Source: Candidatus Poribacteria bacterium
GTDB lineage: Bacteria > Poribacteria > WGA-4E > GCA-2687025
Assembly (NCBI GenBank): GCA_016866785.1
Contig: VGLH01000021.1
Location: 1-38,845 of the forward strand
Reading direction: 5' to 3'
DNA length: 38,845 nucleotides
Below, piece after piece: positions 14,326 through 23,686 of this stretch (within the stretch, counting starts at the first letter, position 1; each line of letters begins with the position of its first letter). Below the pieces are notes generated by a model. That model searched no databases. It saw nothing but the letters and a program-made list of their open reading frames with translations, and was not told where the DNA came from. A program made the position numbers and the translations under genes.

Positions 14326-14418
14326 GGGTCGGAGAGTGCCCTTTCGCGGTCGAACGTCGGTTCACGTCAGTCGGCGTGGCTATATTACCACATCGACCAC
14401 AATCTCCTCGGAACCCCC

Positions 14419-14447
14419 TTGCGCGAAATGGGGTCGAGTGGTATATT
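14419..14447 (+). promoter_or_regulatory. Candidate promoter of the Rrf2-molybdoenzyme operon
   Basis: TTGCGC (14419-14424), a 17-base spacer and TATATT (14442-14447) lie 54 bases upstream of the regulator start. It is the only good promoter-like sequence I see before the seven-gene operon. Confidence 0.55.
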
Positions 14448-14460
14448 CATACTAACGACT

Positions 14461-14470
14461 CCGATATCGG
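14461..14470. promoter_or_regulatory. Palindrome at the start region, candidate operator
   Basis: CCGATATCGG is a perfect 10-base palindrome, just downstream of the predicted transcription start and before the regulator's ribosome site. It is a possible autoregulatory site for the Rrf2 protein, by position only. Confidence 0.35.
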
Positions 14471-14501
14471 GTTTGGGCGCGGAGTCTACCGGAGGTTGGA
14501 A

Positions 14502-14972
14502 GTGATCTTCTCGCGGTCATGTGAGCACGGAATCAACGTCGTGCTCTACCTGGCGGTCAGCGGTCGCGAGGGATTTATCCCCGTGCGTACGCTTGCCCAA
14601 AGGTGCAGCATCCCATTTCACTTCCTCGGGAAGATCTGCGGGCAACTGACGCATAGCGGCATCCTCCAGTCGCACAAAGGTCCCAACGGCGGCGTCGCAC
14701 TGGGACGACCGATGTCGGGCATCACCTTGCTGCAGGTCGTCGATGCCATCGACGGGCTGGAGCAGTTCGACGGCTGTGTGCTGGGTCTGGAACCGTGCAG
14801 TTGCGTGAATCCGTGTCCCGTCCATGAACACTGGGCTGCGATCAAGGCGAGTATCCAGACGATGCTCGCCTCCAAGACTCTCGACCAACTCGCCAGCGAG
14901 TTGGCACAAGGCAAGAAGACGTTGAAGACGTCGTTCGGTGGGGTTCCCAAAGGACGTTCCGTAGTCGTCTAG
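14502..14972 (+). CDS. Rrf2-family Fe-S transcriptional regulator
   Basis: A 156-residue protein. An N-terminal winged helix (YLAVSGREGFIPVRTLAQRC, then FLGKICGQLTHSGILQSHKG and PNGGVALGRP) is followed by the dimerisation helix (ITLLQVVDAIDGL) and a cysteine-rich segment with C92, C99, C101 and C105. Rrf2 regulators such as IscR and NsrR carry an Fe-S cluster there that senses redox state, iron or nitric oxide. This spacing (C-x6-C-x-C-x3-C) has four cysteines rather than three. The start is the GTG at 14502, with GGAGG 6 bases upstream. It is the first gene of the operon, 12 bases before the zinc-ribbon gene, and probably controls it. Confidence 0.9.
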   Translation: MIFSRSCEHGINVVLYLAVSGREGFIPVRTLAQRCSIPFHFLGKICGQLTHSGILQSHKGPNGGVALGRPMSGITLLQVVDAIDGLEQFDGCVLGLEPCSCVNPCPVHEHWAAIKASIQTMLASKTLDQLASELAQGKKTLKTSFGGVPKGRSVVV

Positions 14973-14984
14973 CGAGTTGGCGCG

Positions 14985-16034
14985 ATGTCAGACAGCAATT
15001 CTCTGCGCGGGCTGAACCGTCTGTTTCATCAGTTCCCGATACCAGAGTCTTCGGTCGCCATTTGGGTGGAGAAGCGGTTCGTCGAAGTGCTGGTCGACGA
15101 CGCCATCCATCGCCGGCGGGATCGCGGCGATGCCTCCGCCTATGACGCCTACCACGAAGAGGCGGACGCGATCTACGACATGCCCGCCGCATCTCGCGAC
15201 GAAGCCTTTTCTGTGCTGCACGCGGCGTTCTTCGTCAAGCTGGGGCTGCATCAGCCGTTCGTGACGGTCGTGCGCGAGTTCCCGACCTGCCCAGGGCAGG
15301 CCGCCGCGCTGCTGGTCGCCCAGGTGCGTTCCGCGCAGGACGAGTCGGTCGATCTCGAGCGACGAAGCGGCGATGCCGCTCAGGCGCGCAACATCGGCGT
15401 TCGGATTCGAGCCGAGCGATTCGTCGATCTGCAGGGGCTGGCCCGCCACCTGCGTCAGGAGATGATGCCCGTCGCAGACCTCCTCGACCCCGCGTTCCAG
15501 TCCGACGTGCGTCCCAGTTGGCGCGTGCAGTCTCCGACAGAAGAGAACCTGCTCCGCGATCGGTATCGATCTCTGTGGTGCGTGAACATCAGCGGACGCC
15601 TGGAGCGACGCCAAGTCCAGGGAACCCAGACGCGGGCGATGGTGCGCGCCGAGTTCGACCGGTTGTTCCGCAGGCTGCCGGAGAACTCGCGCGACCGGGC
15701 ATTCGAACGCCTCTGGGCGGCGGATTCGATCACGCACCCGGACCTCATGACGTTGTGTGCGAGTGTGAAGGCGCTGGGGTGGTATGCCGACGACGGGAGC
15801 ATCGTGGCGTCGCCGGAAACCGCCGAGGCTGTCGTCGTGGAGCCCGTGGACGGGGCTCCGTGTCCGTTGTGCCGGTTCCCGACCTTCCGATGGGTCCTGC
15901 CCGGGGAGATGGTCGGGGAGCGCATGGAGGGCGTTGTCGCCCGGGTCCGTTCGCAATTCCGTGACTGGCGACCGGAACAGGGCATCTGTGAGCGATGTCT
16001 CGAACGCATGGAAATGGACGTGCTGGCTAGTTGA
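14985..16034 (+). CDS. Uncharacterised protein with C-terminal zinc ribbon, in molybdoenzyme operon
   Basis: A 349-residue soluble protein that I do not recognise. The body is mostly helical and charged. The last ~57 residues carry two CxxC pairs (C293/C296 in CPLCRFPTF, C335/C338 in ICERCLERM), a probable zinc ribbon or small Fe-S site. No signal peptide is seen, so it should be cytoplasmic. It lies 12 bases after the regulator and 35 before the catalytic subunit, so a role in regulation, cofactor insertion or maturation of the complex is plausible but unproven. The ATG at 14985 lacks a strong ribosome site and may be coupled to the upstream gene. Confidence 0.8.
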   Translation: MSDSNSLRGLNRLFHQFPIPESSVAIWVEKRFVEVLVDDAIHRRRDRGDASAYDAYHEEADAIYDMPAASRDEAFSVLHAAFFVKLGLHQPFVTVVREFPTCPGQAAALLVAQVRSAQDESVDLERRSGDAAQARNIGVRIRAERFVDLQGLARHLRQEMMPVADLLDPAFQSDVRPSWRVQSPTEENLLRDRYRSLWCVNISGRLERRQVQGTQTRAMVRAEFDRLFRRLPENSRDRAFERLWAADSITHPDLMTLCASVKALGWYADDGSIVASPETAEAVVVEPVDGAPCPLCRFPTFRWVLPGEMVGERMEGVVARVRSQFRDWRPEQGICERCLERMEMDVLAS

Positions 16035-16069: not shown

Positions 16070-19000
16070 ATGGCGATCACTCGCCGCAGGTTCCTGCAAG
16101 CCGCCGGGGTCGTCGGCGGAACGACGCTCATCGGCGAGATCGGATGCCGCACACGGCGGCTCAAGTCCGTCGTGTCGGTCGATAACCCGCTCGACGTCTA
16201 CCCGAACCGTGGATGGGAGACGATCTACCGCGACCAGTACGCGTATGACCGCAGCTTCGCGTGGGTCTGCTCGCCCAACTGCACGCACCAGTGCCGGCTG
16301 CTCGCGTTCGAGCGGAACGGCGTCGTAACGCGCATCGAGCAGAACTACGACATCGGCAGGTACTCGGACCTGTACGGGAACCAGGCGACCGTGAATTGGA
16401 ACCCGCGCGGCTGCAACAAGGGATACACGTTCCATCGTCGCCTCTACGGACCCTACCGCCTGCGCTACCCGATCGTGCGCAAGGGATGGAAGCAGTGGGC
16501 GGACGATGGGTTCCCGTACCTGACCGATGCCAACCGGTCCAAGTACAAGTTCGACGCGCGCGGCTCGGACACCTTCACGCGCATCTCGTGGGACGAGACG
16601 TTCGACTATATCGCCAAGGGTCTCACGAGCATCTCCAAGACGTACAGCGGACCCGAAGGCGCGAAGCGGCTCGCGGAGCAGGGCTACGAACCCGAGATGA
16701 TCGAGGACATGGGCGGCGCGGGAACGCGGACGCTCAAGTTCCGTGGCGGCATGGGGCTGCTGGGGGTCATCGGGAAATACGGCATGTATCGCCTGTCCAA
16801 TTCGATGGCGCTCGTGGACGCCAAGATACGGGGCGTCGGCGAGGAAAAGGCGCGCGGCGGCAGGAACTGGTCGAACTACACCTGGCATGGCGACCAAGCG
16901 CCGGGACATCCGTGGGTGCATGGGCTCCAGACGAGCGATACCGACTTCAACGACCTGCGCTCGTCCAAGCTCATCATCATGTCGGGCAAGAACCTCGTCG
17001 AGAACAAGATGGCGGACGCGCACTTCTTCATCGAGTGCATGGAGCGCGGCGCGAAGATCGTCGTCATCAGCCCGGAGTACGGCGCGCCGTCCACCAAGGC
17101 GGACTACTGGATTCCGATCCGCCCCAACAGCGATACGGCGCTCTTCCTGGGCATCACGAAGTGGCTCATCGACAACAAGCGCTATGACGCCGACTTCGTG
17201 AAGCAGTTCACCGACTTCCCGCTGCTCGTCCGCACGGACAACCTGAAGCGCCTCAAGCCGCAGGACATTGTCGCCGGGTACAAGAACCAGAACATCTCGT
17301 CGGGACCCAGTTACAAACACCACGGTCTGAAGGACGAGCTCCGCGATAAGATCGGCGACTTCGTCGTTTGGGACGGCAAGACGAACAAACCGGTGGCGAT
17401 CACGCGGGACGATGTCGGCAAGACCCTGGTGTCGAAGGGCGTCGATCCCGTCCTCGAAGGGAAGTTCACGGTCAAGACCGTGGACGGCAAGTCCGTCGAG
17501 GTGATGACGCTGTTCGAGATGTACAAGACCCACCTGCGGGACTACGACCTCGACGCCGTCGAAGAGATCACGCGTGCGCCCAAGGACCTTGTCCTGCGGC
17601 TCTGCGAAGACATCGCGACGACGAAGCCGTTCGCGATTCACCAGGGAGAGGGGATCAACCACTGGTTCCACGCGACGCTGGCGAACCGAGCTGCCTATCT
17701 GCCGGCGATGCTGACCGGCAATGTCGGGCGCAAGGGCGCGGGCGTCCACACGTGGGCTGGGAACTACAAGGCGGCGTTGTTCCAGGGTTCCGCTTGGTCT
17801 GGACCCGGGTTCAAGGGATGGGTCGCGGAGGACCCGTTCCATTTGACGCTTGACGGCACGGTGCATGGCAAGGAGATCAAGGCGCACGGCTTCACCAAGG
17901 ACGAGGAGCCGGCGTACTGGAACCACGGCGACCGTCCGCTGATCGTCAAGACGCCCAAGTACGGGCGCAAGGTCTTCACCGGCAAGAGCCACATGCCGAC
18001 GCCGACGAAGGCGATGGTGTTCAGCAACGTGAACCTCATCAACAACGCCAAGCATGCCTACGACATGCTCAAGAACGTGAACCCGAAGGTCGAGATGATC
18101 GTGTCGGTCGATATCCAGATGACCGCCTCGGTCGAATACGCCGACTTCGGGCTTCCCGCCAACTCGTGGGTCGAGTTCGAGGGGAAGGAGATCACGGCGG
18201 CGTGTCAGAACCCCTTCCTCCAGATTTGGGGCGGCAAGGACAACGCGATTCCGCCGCTGTTCGACAGCAAGGACGACGTGGAGGTTCTCGCCGGAATCGG
18301 ACGCGCCCTCGCCAAGGTCAACGGCGATCAACGTCTGGCGGACATGTGGAAGTTCGTCAACGACGGGAACCGCGACGTCTATATCCAGCGCTTGCTGGAC
18401 ACCTGCACGACGACGGCGGGCTACCAGCTCGCGGACGTCATGTCGGGCAAGTACGGCGAGCCGGGCGCGGCGCTGATGCTCTTCCGCACCTACCCGCGCA
18501 TCCCGTTCTGGGAGCAGGTCGAGGACAATCTGCCCTTCTACACGGATCACGGGCGGCTCGCGGCGTACAGCGACCTCGACGAAGCCATCGAGTATGGCGA
18601 GAACTTCATCGTCCATCGGGAGGGTCCCGAAGGCACGCCGTACCTGCCCAACGTCATCGTCAGCTCGAGCCCCTACATCCGTCCTGACGACTACGGAATC
18701 CCGGCGAGCGCGATGCACTGGGACGAGCGCACCGTCCGCAACCTCAAGATGCCGTGGAGCCGAGTCAAGACGAGCAAGAACCCGCTGTGGGATCGGGGAT
18801 ACCAGTTCTTCTGCCTCACGCCCAAGACGCGCCACCGCGTCCACTCGTCGTGGAGCGACACGGACTGGCATCTGATCTGGGACTCCAACTTCGGCGACCC
18901 GTACCGCATGGACAAGCGCATGCCGGGCGTCGGGGAACACCAGCTCCATATGAACCCCCAGGCGGCGAAGGACCTGGGCATCGAGGACGGAGACTACGTC

Positions 19001-19528
19001 TACGTCGACTCGAACGCGGCGGACCGTCCCTACAGGAACTGGGACCCGTCAGACCCGTTCTACAAGGTCGCGCGGTTGATGCTCCGCGCGCGGTACAACC
19101 ACGCCTATCCGTACAACGTCGTCATGATGAAGCACGCGCCGTACATCGCCACGGAGCGGAGCGTCAAGGCGCACGAGACGCGGAAGGACGGCAGGGCGCT
19201 GTCCGAAGACACCGGCTATCAGTCGAACCTGCGGTACGGCTCGCAGCAGAGCGTGACCCGCAACTGGCACATGCCGATGCACCAGACGGACACGCTCTTC
19301 CACAAGTCGAAGGCGTTCATGGGATTCATGCTGGGTGGTGAGGCGGACAACCACGCGATCAACACGGTGCCCAAGGAGACGCTCGTCAAGGTCGTCAAAG
19401 CCGAGGACGGCGGGCTGGGCGGCAAGGGCATCTGGAACCCCAAGAAGACGGGATTCGCACCGGAGACCGAGGATGAGCACATGCTGAAGTACCTCGCCGG
19501 CACGCTGGTCGACGTGAGGAAATCGTAG
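16070..19528 (+). CDS. NxrA/NarG-like molybdopterin catalytic subunit, Tat-exported (type II DMSO reductase family)
   Basis: A 1152-residue Mo-bisPGD oxidoreductase. A twin-arginine signal (ITRRRFLQAAGVVGG) sends it to the periplasm with its partners. The FS0 [4Fe-4S] site has C67, C71, C75 (CSPNCTHQC) and C115. Asp275 in WHGDQAPGHPW aligns with the Mo-ligand Asp of NarG, placing it in the type II group. The length and motifs such as KFRGGMGLLG, TFHRRLYGPYRL, LGIEDGDYVYVDS and KAEDGGLGGKGIW resemble the periplasmic nitrite oxidoreductase/nitrate reductase clade of Nitrospira and anammox bacteria, as I recall them. Whether it oxidises nitrite, reduces nitrate or uses another oxyanion cannot be decided. 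GAGGAG lies 7 bases before the ATG at 16070. An upstream start at 16031 would precede the Tat motif and lacks a ribosome site. Confidence 0.93.
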   Translation: MAITRRRFLQAAGVVGGTTLIGEIGCRTRRLKSVVSVDNPLDVYPNRGWETIYRDQYAYDRSFAWVCSPNCTHQCRLLAFERNGVVTRIEQNYDIGRYSDLYGNQATVNWNPRGCNKGYTFHRRLYGPYRLRYPIVRKGWKQWADDGFPYLTDANRSKYKFDARGSDTFTRISWDETFDYIAKGLTSISKTYSGPEGAKRLAEQGYEPEMIEDMGGAGTRTLKFRGGMGLLGVIGKYGMYRLSNSMALVDAKIRGVGEEKARGGRNWSNYTWHGDQAPGHPWVHGLQTSDTDFNDLRSSKLIIMSGKNLVENKMADAHFFIECMERGAKIVVISPEYGAPSTKADYWIPIRPNSDTALFLGITKWLIDNKRYDADFVKQFTDFPLLVRTDNLKRLKPQDIVAGYKNQNISSGPSYKHHGLKDELRDKIGDFVVWDGKTNKPVAITRDDVGKTLVSKGVDPVLEGKFTVKTVDGKSVEVMTLFEMYKTHLRDYDLDAVEEITRAPKDLVLRLCEDIATTKPFAIHQGEGINHWFHATLANRAAYLPAMLTGNVGRKGAGVHTWAGNYKAALFQGSAWSGPGFKGWVAEDPFHLTLDGTVHGKEIKAHGFTKDEEPAYWNHGDRPLIVKTPKYGRKVFTGKSHMPTPTKAMVFSNVNLINNAKHAYDMLKNVNPKVEMIVSVDIQMTASVEYADFGLPANSWVEFEGKEITAACQNPFLQIWGGKDNAIPPLFDSKDDVEVLAGIGRALAKVNGDQRLADMWKFVNDGNRDVYIQRLLDTCTTTAGYQLADVMSGKYGEPGAALMLFRTYPRIPFWEQVEDNLPFYTDHGRLAAYSDLDEAIEYGENFIVHREGPEGTPYLPNVIVSSSPYIRPDDYGIPASAMHWDERTVRNLKMPWSRVKTSKNPLWDRGYQFFCLTPKTRHRVHSSWSDTDWHLIWDSNFGDPYRMDKRMPGVGEHQLHMNPQAAKDLGIEDGDYVYVDSNAADRPYRNWDPSDPFYKVARLMLRARYNHAYPYNVVMMKHAPYIATERSVKAHETRKDGRALSEDTGYQSNLRYGSQQSVTRNWHMPMHQTDTLFHKSKAFMGFMLGGEADNHAINTVPKETLVKVVKAEDGGLGGKGIWNPKKTGFAPETEDEHMLKYLAGTLVDVRKS

Positions 19529-19577: not shown

Positions 19578-19952
19578 ATGCCCAAAGATGAAGTCGCCCT
19601 CACCGATCCGATGGAGCTCTCCGGGATGCTCGGGCCCGCGATGACGCCCGAGGACATCGCGGAGATGACCCGCTGCATCGTGGACGAGTACGTCCGCATG
19701 GGGCTCGACGATGCGGAGGTCTACGAGCTCTTCAGCGATCCGAACTATCCGGTCACGCACGCCATCCTGCGGAGCCACGGCGAAGGCTACGTGCGAGAGG
19801 CGATCGCGGAGATACGGGCGCGTTGGGGAGGCGTCTGGCGGTTCCGCACCGAGATGGAGCCCGGCGCCGACGAGATCGAGGATGACATCGACGCGCTGCT
19901 CGAAGACGAGTACATCCCCGCCAGCACGATCAGCAAGTTCGACTGGGCGTAG
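19578..19952 (+). CDS. Small acidic protein of the Nxr-like operon, unknown function
   Basis: A 124-residue acidic protein with no recognised domain, signal peptide or membrane span. It is helix-rich (MTPEDIAEMTRCIVDEYVRM, VREAIAEIRARWGGVW) and ends in an acidic stretch (ADEIEDDIDALLEDEY). GGGAG lies 8 bases upstream of the ATG, and only 11 bases separate it from the Fe-S subunit gene, so it is translated as part of the operon. Its place between the two main subunits suggests an assembly factor or an extra small subunit. With no signal it would have to act in the cytoplasm or be carried out with the Tat-exported complex. Confidence 0.8.
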   Translation: MPKDEVALTDPMELSGMLGPAMTPEDIAEMTRCIVDEYVRMGLDDAEVYELFSDPNYPVTHAILRSHGEGYVREAIAEIRARWGGVWRFRTEMEPGADEIEDDIDALLEDEYIPASTISKFDWA

Positions 19953-19963
19953 AGGAGAACCAC

Positions 19964-21232
19964 ATGCCACAGGTCTACAACTGGCAGCTCGGCAGGGAGA
20001 TGAGCTATCCCTACGAAGCTCGCCATCCGCAATGGCAGTTCGCGTTCGTCTTCAACATCAACCGGTGTCTCGGCTGCCAGACGTGCACCGTCGCGTGCAA
20101 GTCCACATGGACCTTCTCCAAGGGGCAGGAATACATGTGGTGGAACAACGTTGAGACGAAGCCCTACGGCGGCTATCCGCAGTTCTGGGATGTCAAGGCG
20201 CTCCGACTGCTCGAAGACGCCAACCCCGGCGGGCAGACGTGGACGGAGAAGGCGGGCGACGCGAAGGCTCCCTACGGAACGTACGACGGCATCACGCTCT
20301 TCGAGGGAGCCGAACGGCGCTTCGGGGACGACGGTTCCCGCCGCGTGCTGGGATACATGCCCGCCGACGATGAATGGACCGCTCCGAACATCTACGAGGA
20401 CACGCCCAAGGGCGAGAAGGGCGTGCGGAACCAATTCCGCCACGGCTCGGCGATGCTGCCGTCGCACGATACGTGGTTCTTCTACCTGCAGCGGCTGTGC
20501 AACCACTGCTCCTATCCGGCGTGTCTCGCCGCCTGCCCGCGCAAGGCGATCTACAAGCGGCAGGAGGACGGGATCGTCCTCATCGACCAGAATCGCTGCC
20601 GTGGCTACAAGAAGTGCGTCGAAGCCTGCCCATACAAGAAGTCGCTCTACCGAGGCACGACGCGCGTGTCGGAGAAGTGCGTCGGCTGCTACCCGCGCGT
20701 CGAGGGGAAGGACCCGATGTCCGAAGGTGCGCCGATGGAGACGCGCTGCATGGCGGCGTGCATCGGCAAGATCCGGATGCAGGGCTTGGTCGCGGTGAAC
20801 GAGGACGGGAGTTGGACCGAGGACAAGTCGAACCCGCTCTACTACATGGTGAAGGTCGCCAAGGTCGCCCTCCCGCTCTATCCGCAGTTCGGGACGGAGC
20901 CGAACGGCTACTACATCCCGCCGCGCTGGGTTCCTCGTCCCTACCTGCGGCAGATGTTCGGGCCCGGCGTCGATCAGGCGATCGAGCAGTACACGGCTCC
21001 ATCGCGCGAACTGCTCGCCATCATGCAGTTGTTCCGCGTCTCGCGCCGGATCATCTTCAAGTACGAGATCGAAGAGGGCGAGAAGGTCTACGAGACGACG
21101 ATCAACGGCAAGCCGTGGGCGATGTACAACGACACGGTCATCGGATTCGGCAAGGACGGCAAGGAGATCGTCCGCACGACGGTCGAGGAACCGCTCCACG
21201 TCCGTCCCGACAAGCACGCGAACGCGATCTAG
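19964..21232 (+). CDS. NxrB/NarH-like four-cluster iron-sulfur subunit
   Basis: A 422-residue electron-transfer subunit, close to the ~430 I recall for Nitrospira NxrB. Cluster ligands are visible in four groups: C35/C38/C41/C45 (CLGCQTCTVAC), CNHCSYPACLAACP, CRGYKKCVEACP and CVGCYPR with ETRCMAACIGKIR. In the third group Tyr sits where a cluster cysteine would be, the pattern known to give a [3Fe-4S] centre in NarH. So three [4Fe-4S] and one [3Fe-4S] are expected. Strongly conserved stretches are MWWNNVETKPYGGYPQFWD and FGTEPNGYYIPPRW. There is no signal peptide, so export probably rides on the catalytic subunit's Tat signal. GAGGAG precedes the ATG. Confidence 0.95.
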   Translation: MPQVYNWQLGREMSYPYEARHPQWQFAFVFNINRCLGCQTCTVACKSTWTFSKGQEYMWWNNVETKPYGGYPQFWDVKALRLLEDANPGGQTWTEKAGDAKAPYGTYDGITLFEGAERRFGDDGSRRVLGYMPADDEWTAPNIYEDTPKGEKGVRNQFRHGSAMLPSHDTWFFYLQRLCNHCSYPACLAACPRKAIYKRQEDGIVLIDQNRCRGYKKCVEACPYKKSLYRGTTRVSEKCVGCYPRVEGKDPMSEGAPMETRCMAACIGKIRMQGLVAVNEDGSWTEDKSNPLYYMVKVAKVALPLYPQFGTEPNGYYIPPRWVPRPYLRQMFGPGVDQAIEQYTAPSRELLAIMQLFRVSRRIIFKYEIEEGEKVYETTINGKPWAMYNDTVIGFGKDGKEIVRTTVEEPLHVRPDKHANAI

Positions 21233-21260: not shown

Positions 21261-22046
21261 ATGACAGTTGCCGACCGGATCGCGACAAACATGGCGCGAA
21301 GCCAGATCCATCGCTACCTTGCGGACGCGTTCGACTACCCGGATGCCGAGCTCGCCGAATCGGTCCGCTCCGGTCGGCTGCAGCAAGGGATCGCCGGCGC
21401 TGCGGCGCAGTTGCCGGAGATCAAAGGCGAGGACCCCGCCGCCGAAGCGGCGTGTCTCGAGGCGGTCGCGTGGCTCACGTCCCACGCGGGCGAGATCACG
21501 CTAGATCGCCTCGACACGGAGTACGGCGCGGTGTTCGGGCACGCGCTCTCGCGGGACTGCCCGCAGTATGAGACGGAGTATGTCGGTGAGCACATCTTCT
21601 ACCAGTCGCAGGAGCTGGCGGACATCTCCGGGTTCTACCGGGCGTATGAGCTGGACGTGTCGGAGACGGCTCACGAACGTCTCGACCATGTGAGCGTCGA
21701 GCTGGAGTGGATGCACGTGGTCGCAGCGCGCGAGGCGTACGCGCTCCAGGAGGGGAAGTCGGAACAGGCGGAAGTGTGCCGCGACTCACAGCGACAGTTT
21801 GTCGAGGCGCACATCGGTCGATGGGGTTCCTACTTCGCGCGGCTGGTCGCCTCCGCTGCGCCGGACACCGTGTATCGTCGGTTCGCGGATGTTCTGCAGT
21901 GGTTTTTGGAATATGAGACTCGATCTCTAAACGCGTCACCGGAGCAGGTCGTTGCCATTCGCCCCGTCGAGACCTTCGACGAGGAGGCAGAGGCGGCGCG
22001 CGCGCCGGGTTCTGACGTCCAGTGGGTAGGAGACATGACACGATGA
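21261..22046 (+). CDS. TorD/NarJ-family molybdoenzyme maturation chaperone
   Basis: A 261-residue all-helical protein. Family motifs are CPQYETEY (100-107), ELADISGFYRA (118-128) and DHVSVELEWM (142-151), the TorD hallmark. These cytoplasmic chaperones hold the apo catalytic subunit, guard its Tat signal and help insert the Mo cofactor. Its position directly after the Fe-S subunit fits that job for the 16070-19528 product. GGAGG lies 8 bases before the ATG. The stop overlaps the next start as ATGA (22043-22046), so the two are translationally coupled. Confidence 0.92.
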   Translation: MTVADRIATNMARSQIHRYLADAFDYPDAELAESVRSGRLQQGIAGAAAQLPEIKGEDPAAEAACLEAVAWLTSHAGEITLDRLDTEYGAVFGHALSRDCPQYETEYVGEHIFYQSQELADISGFYRAYELDVSETAHERLDHVSVELEWMHVVAAREAYALQEGKSEQAEVCRDSQRQFVEAHIGRWGSYFARLVASAAPDTVYRRFADVLQWFLEYETRSLNASPEQVVAIRPVETFDEEAEAARAPGSDVQWVGDMTR

Positions 22047-23632
22047 AGCGCGGAGTATGGATGTACGTCATCCCGGCGGTGTTGTTCGTCGCCGTTGCCG
22101 CCGGCGCGGTGTGGCTCCTGCGCAATCGACCGCAGGGGGACCAAGGGGCGAAGGGTCCGCTGACGGCGGCGCAGAAGCTCTACAACCGGGAGTGCCTGGT
22201 CTGCCACGGACCGACGGGCGAGGGGAACGGGCAGGCAGCCTACCTGCTCTATCCCAAGCCGCGAGACTTCACCAAGGGGTGGTTCAAGGTCCGGTCGACG
22301 CCTTCGGGTCAGTTGCCGACCGACGCAGACCTGCTCGCCGTGCTGAAGCGCGGCATGCCGGGATCGGCGATGCCCAGCTTCGCGCACCTGTCCGACGAAG
22401 AGCTGAACCTGCTCGTCAGCGTCGTGAAGGGGTTCGCGCCGGCGTTCGCGGAGCGTCAGCCGACGGAGGGCATCGCGCCCCCGGCTCCGCTGCCTCAGAC
22501 GCCTGAGAACATCGCGCGCGGCAAAGAGGTCTACGCCCAGATGCAGTGCGCCGCCTGCCACGGCGAGATGGGCAGAGCCGACGGCTTGTCGTCCGCGATG
22601 CTCACGGACGACTGGGGTCTGCAGATCAAGGCGAACGACTTCACGCGCGGCATCTACAAGGGCGGCGGGCGCGACGAGGACATCTATCTCCGGTTCCGCA
22701 CCGGTATGACCGGAACGCCCATGCCGTCCTATGAGGGACTGCTGCCGGACAACGACATCTACGCGGTCGTGCAGTACGTGAAGTCGCTCGCGGGGGATGT
22801 GCCGGAGGCTGTGCAGCCCCAGCAGGCGTCGTTGACGGCGGCGAAGGTCGCCGGAGCGGTTCCCGAAGATCCGCTGAGCCCGGCGTGGGGTTCCGCGCCA
22901 TCGACGTCGTTGCCGCTGATGCTGCTTTATCAGCGTCGCGAATCGTCGGCGCACGTTGACGTCAAGGCGGTTCACAACGGCAAGGAAGTCGCCATCCTGA
23001 TGGAGTGGAGTGACGCTGCCGTGAACGCCGAAACGATCCGGCCGCAGGACTTCAGCGACGGCGGCGGCGTGCAGTTCGCGTTGAGATCCGACGTGTCGCT
23101 GGAATCCCTGACGATGGGAGCCGCGACCACGCCGGTCAACATCTGGTACTGGCGCGCGAGCCGACAGATGGACCTGGTGGCGTACGCCGACGTCGAGGCG
23201 GTCTACCCGAACGTAGCCCCGGATGGGTACCTTCAGGCGAAGCCGTTCGACCCGAAGGAAGACGAGAGCAAGCGGCATGACATTCCTGCTGCCGCGAGCT
23301 ACGACAAGACCTATCTGACGGCGCTGGCGGCAGGGAACCCCGTGTCGAACCCGACGCGGACGGTTCCGATGGAAGACCTCAACGCAGAGGGATTCGGTTC
23401 GCTCACGACGCAGCCCGACGCGAGCCAAAACGTCCGTGGCGCGGGCGTCTGGGACAACGGCAAGTGGAAGGTTGTGTTCGTTCGCCCGTTGGCTTCGCCG
23501 GATCAGACCGATGCCAAGCTGACGGCTGGCAAACAGGTTCCGGTCGCCTTCGCTGTGTGGGACGGCGGACAAGGCGACCGTAACGGTCAGAAGTCCGTGA
23601 CCAACTGGAATCTTCTGACACTCGCCCCTTAG
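22043..23632 (+). CDS. NxrC-like subunit: anchored dihaem cytochrome c fused to ethylbenzene-dehydrogenase-type haem domain
   Basis: A 529-residue protein. One N-terminal membrane segment (5-25) is followed by two class I cytochrome c domains: CLVCH (51-55), with GMPGSAMPSF downstream as the likely Met-ligand loop, and CAACH (169-173), with TGMTGTPMPSY. Residues ~280-520 form a beta-rich domain of the ethylbenzene dehydrogenase/DMSO reductase gamma (haem b) type. In relatives the gamma subunit takes electrons from the Fe-S subunit. Here they could flow Mo to Fe-S to haem b to two haems c and on to a periplasmic carrier or quinone. Fusion of both modules in one chain is the unusual point. It is the last gene of the operon, followed by a strong terminator. 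Confidence 0.9.
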   Translation: MKRGVWMYVIPAVLFVAVAAGAVWLLRNRPQGDQGAKGPLTAAQKLYNRECLVCHGPTGEGNGQAAYLLYPKPRDFTKGWFKVRSTPSGQLPTDADLLAVLKRGMPGSAMPSFAHLSDEELNLLVSVVKGFAPAFAERQPTEGIAPPAPLPQTPENIARGKEVYAQMQCAACHGEMGRADGLSSAMLTDDWGLQIKANDFTRGIYKGGGRDEDIYLRFRTGMTGTPMPSYEGLLPDNDIYAVVQYVKSLAGDVPEAVQPQQASLTAAKVAGAVPEDPLSPAWGSAPSTSLPLMLLYQRRESSAHVDVKAVHNGKEVAILMEWSDAAVNAETIRPQDFSDGGGVQFALRSDVSLESLTMGAATTPVNIWYWRASRQMDLVAYADVEAVYPNVAPDGYLQAKPFDPKEDESKRHDIPAAASYDKTYLTALAAGNPVSNPTRTVPMEDLNAEGFGSLTTQPDASQNVRGAGVWDNGKWKVVFVRPLASPDQTDAKLTAGKQVPVAFAVWDGGQGDRNGQKSVTNWNLLTLAP

Positions 23633-23651: not shown

Positions 23652-23686
23652 GTCCCGCCGAGTTTTGCAGGCTCGGCGGGACTTTT
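23652..23686 (+). terminator. Intrinsic terminator of the Nxr-like operon
   Basis: GTCCCGCCGAG (23652-23662) pairs perfectly with CTCGGCGGGAC (23672-23682), with a 9-base loop, then TTTT. It ends the rightward operon 20 bases after the last stop and may also serve the convergent aldo/keto reductase gene. Confidence 0.88.

Follow-up and report, generated by a model that had tools for sequence, protein, structure and literature searches.

Nitrite oxidoreductase (NXR) makes nearly all environmental nitrate. A contig of a Candidatus Poribacteria bacterium (VGLH01000021.1, positions 1 to 38,845, all 38,845 nucleotides of which were analysed and are here denoted the window) carries an nxr operon whose last gene encodes a dihaem cytochrome c joined in one chain to an ethylbenzene-dehydrogenase-type (EB_dh) haem-b domain. 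The locus raises the question of whether this fused protein is the gamma subunit of the enzyme, and whether its c haems would give electrons a way out of haem b. In the NXR of Kuenenia (KsNXR), electrons that arrive at the NXR-C haem b "cannot travel further" inside the solved structure (PMC8387239). We consider it probable that the fused protein serves as gamma subunit (NxrC) in a periplasmic NXR of the Kuenenia/Nitrospira type in this Poribacteria relative, wiring haem b through the c haems to a respiratory partner.

The nxr operon and its last gene

The operon has the order orf349-nxrA-orf124-nxrB-torD-nxrC, with all genes on the + strand, short gaps between them and a terminator after nxrC. 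Its features, including the gene upstream, are:

14376..14972, + strand: Rrf2-family regulator (TIGR00738, 3.7e-25), co-directional, 12 bp 5' of orf349
14985..16034, + strand: orf349, conserved NXR-cluster protein with C-terminal CxxC...CxxC
16070..19528, + strand: nxrA, catalytic molybdoenzyme subunit with Tat signal; the ORF opens at 16031, the MAITRRRFL start is at 16070
19578..19952, + strand: orf124, small conserved helical protein between nxrA and nxrB
19964..21232, + strand: nxrB, four-cluster Fe-S subunit (TIGR03478, 5.4e-76; narH, 4.7e-54)
21261..22046, + strand: TorD-like molybdoenzyme chaperone (PF02613, 5.5e-18; TIGR03482, 3.2e-24)
22043..23632, + strand: fused nxrC, encoding an N-terminal hydrophobic segment, dihaem cytochrome c and EB_dh haem-b domain
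23652..23682, + strand: intrinsic-terminator-like hairpin of 14 pairs with a T tail, 20 bp past the nxrC stop; it has the longest stem, while terminator-like sites overall are no commoner than in shuffles

The Rrf2-family protein possibly regulates the nxr operon. Neither orf349 nor orf124 matched a profile in Pfam or NCBIfam. Homologues of orf349 adjoin nxrA at five other loci from several phyla, and the gene may correspond to the "putative zinc finger" protein mentioned for NXR clusters (PMC3578206). Homologues of orf124 sit between nxrA and nxrB at six loci; an alignment of seven sequences from nxr operons yields the motif DPMEL...EEY.R.GW...LFxDPfY, the predicted structure is helical (pLDDT 73), and the protein is a candidate assembly factor.

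The catalytic subunits are of the periplasmic NXR type

NxrA matches Kuenenia NXR-A (7b04_B) over its full length (residues 14-1162) with 1853.8 bits, as against about 230 bits for perchlorate reductase-type enzymes and about 122 bits for NarG in the same comparison. The protein opens with a twin-arginine TRRRFL start and has the Mo-site motif Y-4x-D-11x-Q and the FS0 motif C..N.TH.C; the Mo-ligand Asp and the substrate Asn of NXR-A are both present. The full-length match, the twin-arginine start and the Mo-site motif together point to a periplasmic enzyme, and judged from these features the alpha/beta pair is a periplasmic NXR of the Kuenenia/Nitrospira type. NxrB is 64-74% identical to the NxrB proteins adjoining other fused genes.

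The FS0 motif lies at 16268-16294. The position of Asp71 in Kuenenia NXR-A is Cys in the window and in two further genomes, G003 and G005 (CSPNCTH[QA]C; L071, L072), and Asp in the other NxrA-type operons where the motif was found. The KsNXR paper describes FS0 as having three Cys plus Asp or His only, in an alignment remark and not as a strict definition (PMC8387239). FS0 may thus be ligated by four Cys in these three NxrA proteins, which are otherwise NXR-like, and this is not proof against NXR.

Within the window genome, a metagenome-assembled genome about 95% complete, this is the one NxrA-type enzyme. Other molybdopterin matches belong to a protein with 2Fe-2S and NADH-G domains (contig C14) and to a fragment by a complex-I-like gene (contig C124). 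As the preliminary description had noted, there is no NarI-like gene in the operon; NarI (PF02665) has no match in the fused protein either, and none genome-wide. The same description held that the fused protein replaces a NarI-type subunit, which is the wrong comparison: periplasmic NXR and ethylbenzene dehydrogenase enzymes use EB_dh gamma subunits, so that nothing of the NarI type has been replaced. Like NarI of membrane nitrate reductase, the fused protein would link the Fe-S subunit electronically to the respiratory chain, but NarI is a multi-span membrane dihaem-b quinol subunit unrelated to it.

The fused gene fills the gamma-subunit slot of the operon, and no other EB_dh gene lies near nxrAB. 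A single further EB_dh protein is encoded in the genome, at another place and with no CxxCH; since the assembly is about 95% complete, another gamma subunit could be missing from it. That second protein (contig C124; L044 3676-4779) is lipoprotein-like and has a CxxxCH sequence (CQVTCH). In a set made up of the window genome and 58 relatives, four genomes have NxrA, and these four alone have the operon-type fusion. The gamma role first proposed for the gene is supported by both operon position and homology. The two parts of the fused protein co-diverge (r=0.93), and each tracks NxrB (r=0.69 for the c domain, 0.61 for EB_dh) more closely than NxrA (0.47); this fits an interface with NxrB and does not prove one.

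Two c-type haem sites and an EB_dh domain in one chain

The fused ORF runs from an ATG at 22043, which overlaps the stop codon of the torD-like gene, to a stop at 23632 and encodes 529 amino acids, with these features:

22064..22120, + strand: N-terminal hydrophobic segment (residues 8-26), likely an uncleaved anchor
22193..22207, + strand: c-haem 1 site CLVCH (residues 51-55), probable distal ligand Met110; kept in 14/14 relatives
22547..22561, + strand: c-haem 2 site CAACH (residues 169-173), probable distal ligand Met227; kept in 14/14 relatives
22883..23596, + strand: EB_dh haem-b domain (residues 281-518), predicted ligands Met358 and Lys517

Coordinates and domain order are as the preliminary description gave them. 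The protein has two CxxCH motifs, each inside a cytochrome c domain (PF00034 in two stretches, 1.5e-20; PF13442, 3.1e-20), as expected of the dihaem protein proposed there. The gamma-type haem-b domain anticipated at residues 280-520 is likewise present: residues 281-518 match EB_dh (PF09459) at 1.8e-33, with 116.9 bits against a cut-off of 33.3, and the type-II heme b subunit profile TIGR03477 scores 146.4 bits, under its cut-off of 169.85. In sequence comparison, residues 43-250 resemble the dihaem chain 6h5l_B of the Kuenenia Kustc0457/0458 complex (1.3e-50), residues 305-527 resemble Kuenenia NXR-C (7b04_C, 6.8e-31), and EbdC (2ivf_C) is also matched (3e-20). The AlphaFold model recovers the same three chains as fold matches (8.6e-20, 9e-17 and 2.5e-13, respectively) at moderate quality (AF2, 14 sequences, mean pLDDT 65.7, pTM 0.51); it is weakest at residues 374-456, and inter-domain haem distances taken from it are not reliable.

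Across the 14 relatives of the same architecture, C51, C54, H55, M110, C169, C172, H173, M227, M358 and K517 do not vary. This conservation makes Met110 and Met227 the probable distal ligands of the c haems. In the alignment with 7b04_C, Met358 falls at position 155 and Lys517 at position 305; the haem-b ligands in the KsNXR structure are Met155C and Lys305C (PMC8387239). From the invariant ligands and this alignment, two His/Met c haems and one Met/Lys haem b can be expected in the fused NxrC.

Electron route and direction

We infer as follows how the protein assembles with NxrAB, by what route and in which net direction electrons move, with which partner they are exchanged and whether the anchor is retained. 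NxrA would be exported by the Tat pathway, with NxrB probably carried along. At the Mo site of NxrA, two electrons would be taken from nitrite, or given to nitrate, in a reversible reaction. They would pass between the Mo site and the Met/Lys haem b of the EB_dh domain by way of FS0-FS4, the NxrB Fe-S chain included, and from haem b to the two His/Met c haems in the same chain. The c haems would then exchange electrons with a respiratory partner, for example a soluble cytochrome c or an aa3-type oxidase. The idea of a built-in wire, put forward in the preliminary description, is plausible.

The same complex could run in the opposite direction as a periplasmic respiratory nitrate reductase, its c haems feeding respiratory-chain electrons to NxrAB, and we give this a substantial though minority chance. 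KsNXR catalyses both directions (PMC8387239). RuBisCO, the sole carbon-fixation marker looked for, was not found in the genome, and the neighbourhood in the window holds genes for carbohydrate esterase and oligogalacturonate lyase, pointing to a heterotroph. Against this, aa3-type oxidase genes are present, so that nitrite oxidation to O2 is possible, and the Mo-site motif is of the Kuenenia NXR type, yet direction is beyond what sequence can settle. A NirK-like match in the genome is sub-threshold only.

The probable N-terminal anchor is a lineage feature

The single N-terminal membrane helix of the preliminary description has its counterpart in one hydrophobic helix (KD19 2.34 at residue 8) that is followed by RNR and, by eye, has no convincing cleavage site. 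No C-terminal transmembrane helix follows; the best KD19 after haem 1 is 0.78. In the window species the helix would probably hold the complex against the membrane on its periplasmic side. All proteins compared were judged cleaved or uncleaved by inspection, and on that basis a signal-peptide cleavage site is plausible in about 10 of 15 relatives, and a membrane anchor in about three of the 15 proteins. The anchor proposed earlier therefore stands for the window protein as a hydrophobic helix, and falls as a conserved design, because the N-termini of most relatives look cleavable. Long hydrophobic N-termini ending in basic residues are confined to a few proteins, those of the window, G003 and Acidobacteria (RNR, RYFRGRK and QRRRS), so that the tether appears to be a lineage feature outside the core design of the fused NxrC.

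The cleavable-looking relatives also favour the reading that the window segment is itself a cleaved signal peptide and the complex soluble and periplasmic, as in most of them. We regard this as unlikely, if not negligibly so, since the segments of the window, G003 and Acidobacteria proteins are longer, more hydrophobic and basic-ended and show no obvious site.

The fusion recurs beside type-II alpha and beta genes in other phyla

A search for the same domain order in other genomes, which the preliminary description had called for, found it adjoining type-II alpha and beta genes in records of eight phyla: Poribacteria, Nitrospinota, Elusimicrobia, Desulfobacteraceae, Nitrospiria/Nitrospirae, Methylomirabilota, Planctomycetota and Acidobacteria. 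The fusion is the sole EB_dh protein found in the Elusimicrobia, one Methylomirabilota and the Acidobacteria genomes. Desulfobacteraceae UBA2156 (L019, L078) has two nxr operons whose NxrC differs, being stand-alone in one and dihaem-fused in the other, which indicates that both forms occupy the same slot and provides a natural comparison pair.

At two loci of Nitrospiria/Nitrospirae (L020 1547-5593 and L021 3122-7171), a fused gamma accompanies a type-II alpha about 26% identical to NxrA, suggesting that fused gammas work with catalytic partners of different kinds. In Nitrospinaceae and Nitrospira (L032, L033, L034), a dihaem cytochrome module of the type seen in the window protein is fused C-terminally to a large membrane oxidase-like protein of about 940-990 amino acids with three CxxCH. 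The matches listed from the plasmid collection involve only the c domain, and no record covers 80% of the query; one match, from Sinorhizobium, falls where the record is unannotated.

In a tree of EB_dh domains, the operon fusions, stand-alone NxrC and EbdC, and the Nitrospinaceae fusions lie on one branch (98/100), with the clade of C-terminally anchored proteins apart; order inside the NxrC side is largely unsupported, and long branches are flagged in the C-anchored clade. The Nitrospinaceae fusions examined form their own clade (100/100), and those with surroundings read lie away from nxrAB. The operon fusions do not form one supported clade (3 changes), although their c and EB_dh domains co-diverge.

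Relation to alternative NxrC proteins and other known systems

The dihaem-EB_dh architecture is already known in nitrite oxidisers as "alternative NxrC": proteins with c-type haems and an EB_dh domain were described from Nitrospina in 2013 (PMC3578206) and Nitrospira in 2019 (PMC6606698). The window protein resembles alt_NxrC_2 of Nitrospira moscoviensis and its homologues in having a dihaem cytochrome c and EB_dh in one chain. It differs in having no C-terminal transmembrane helix, in belonging to a separate clade (98/100) and in its neighbours, nxrAB-torD in place of the bd-like membrane complex beside which alt_NxrC_2 is encoded, away from nxrAB (PMC6606698). On these three counts we rejected identity with alt_NxrC_2. 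Proteins 2 and 4 of the alternative NxrC set of Nitrospina gracilis are likewise periplasmic, with c-type haem sites and a DMSO-reductase-type haem-b domain, but unlike the window gene are encoded outside the nxrABC operons (PMC3578206).

Dihaem-EB_dh proteins with a C-terminal transmembrane helix, 570-640 amino acids long, occur in 47 genomes of the window's class, all without NxrA; the count rests on a similarity search, with about seven of the proteins read directly. One locus of this type is L047 7879-9618. In G041 the neighbours are an octahaem cytochrome and three membrane proteins: a monohaem cytochrome, a dihaem protein and one with 11 spans. The surroundings of the N. defluvii homologue (L074) are similar, in line with the description of alt_NxrC_2 (PMC6606698). 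Because the C-anchored type is so widespread without NxrA, its naming as an NXR subunit is doubtful, and the alt_NxrC_2 type need not be one.

In N. moscoviensis, a soluble single-haem NxrC matches the expression of nxrAB, and the dihaem alternative is expressed at about 4-fold lower level (PMC6606698); this tells against the core-gamma reading, in that the core gamma of that species may be something other than the dihaem form. We think it improbable that the window protein is instead an electron carrier or docking protein distinct from the core enzyme and encoded alongside NxrAB. Such a role has been proposed for the Nitrospira alternative NxrC proteins of like architecture, which are considered docking points (PMC6606698), and the C-anchored versions in NxrA-less genomes might suggest it too; but the window protein lies on the NxrC side of the tree, holds the gamma position with no rival EB_dh gene nearby and has no C-terminal helix.

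We return to the fused protein as the gamma subunit. Its closest counterpart among solved NXR subunits is NXR-C (Kustd1704) of Kuenenia stuttgartiensis (7b04), with the EB_dh fold, Met/Lys haem-b ligands in register and a close NxrA homologue as partner; NXR-C differs in being soluble, without a c-type haem domain, and the genes of the anammox cluster differ from those of the window operon. EbdC of ethylbenzene dehydrogenase (2ivf) is likewise the haem-b gamma of a periplasmic type-II molybdoenzyme, but has a single domain, no c haems and a different substrate.

For the c domain, the closest solved homologue is chain B of 6h5l (42% identity in the fold match), from the HAO-like Kuenenia complex Kustc0457/Kustc0458, a separate polypeptide that serves an octahaem nitrite reductase and is not fused to EB_dh (PMC12485887). 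NXR has been suggested as an electron donor for nitrite reduction by this anammox complex (PMC12485887). The kinship of the c domain with 6h5l_B as a link to the anammox HAO-like nitrite reductase is suggestive only. That the fusion reveals the electron acceptor of NXR, joined to it covalently in the phyla with the fusion, with anammox NXR passing electrons to a dihaem cytochrome of the 6h5l_B family and the fused enzyme being a self-contained form of the same route, is a speculative proposal that we think has a small chance of being correct.

Significance

In the literature searched, outside which most subscription papers lie, we found no paper describing a Poribacteria NXR or a fused gamma within an nxr operon. 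What is new is an operon-encoded fusion of the NxrC clade that is the only nearby gamma candidate, occurs in many phyla and is distinct from the C-anchored clade. The term "alternative NxrC" accordingly covers two things: a fusion of the NxrC clade that accompanies NxrA, and a protein with a C-terminal anchor found in many NxrA-less genomes. An NXR gamma subunit with two c haems of its own, encoded in the nxrAB operon, would be a concrete candidate route for electrons leaving haem b, and nxr operons in Poribacteria add to the organisms that are candidates for nitrite oxidation or nitrate reduction.
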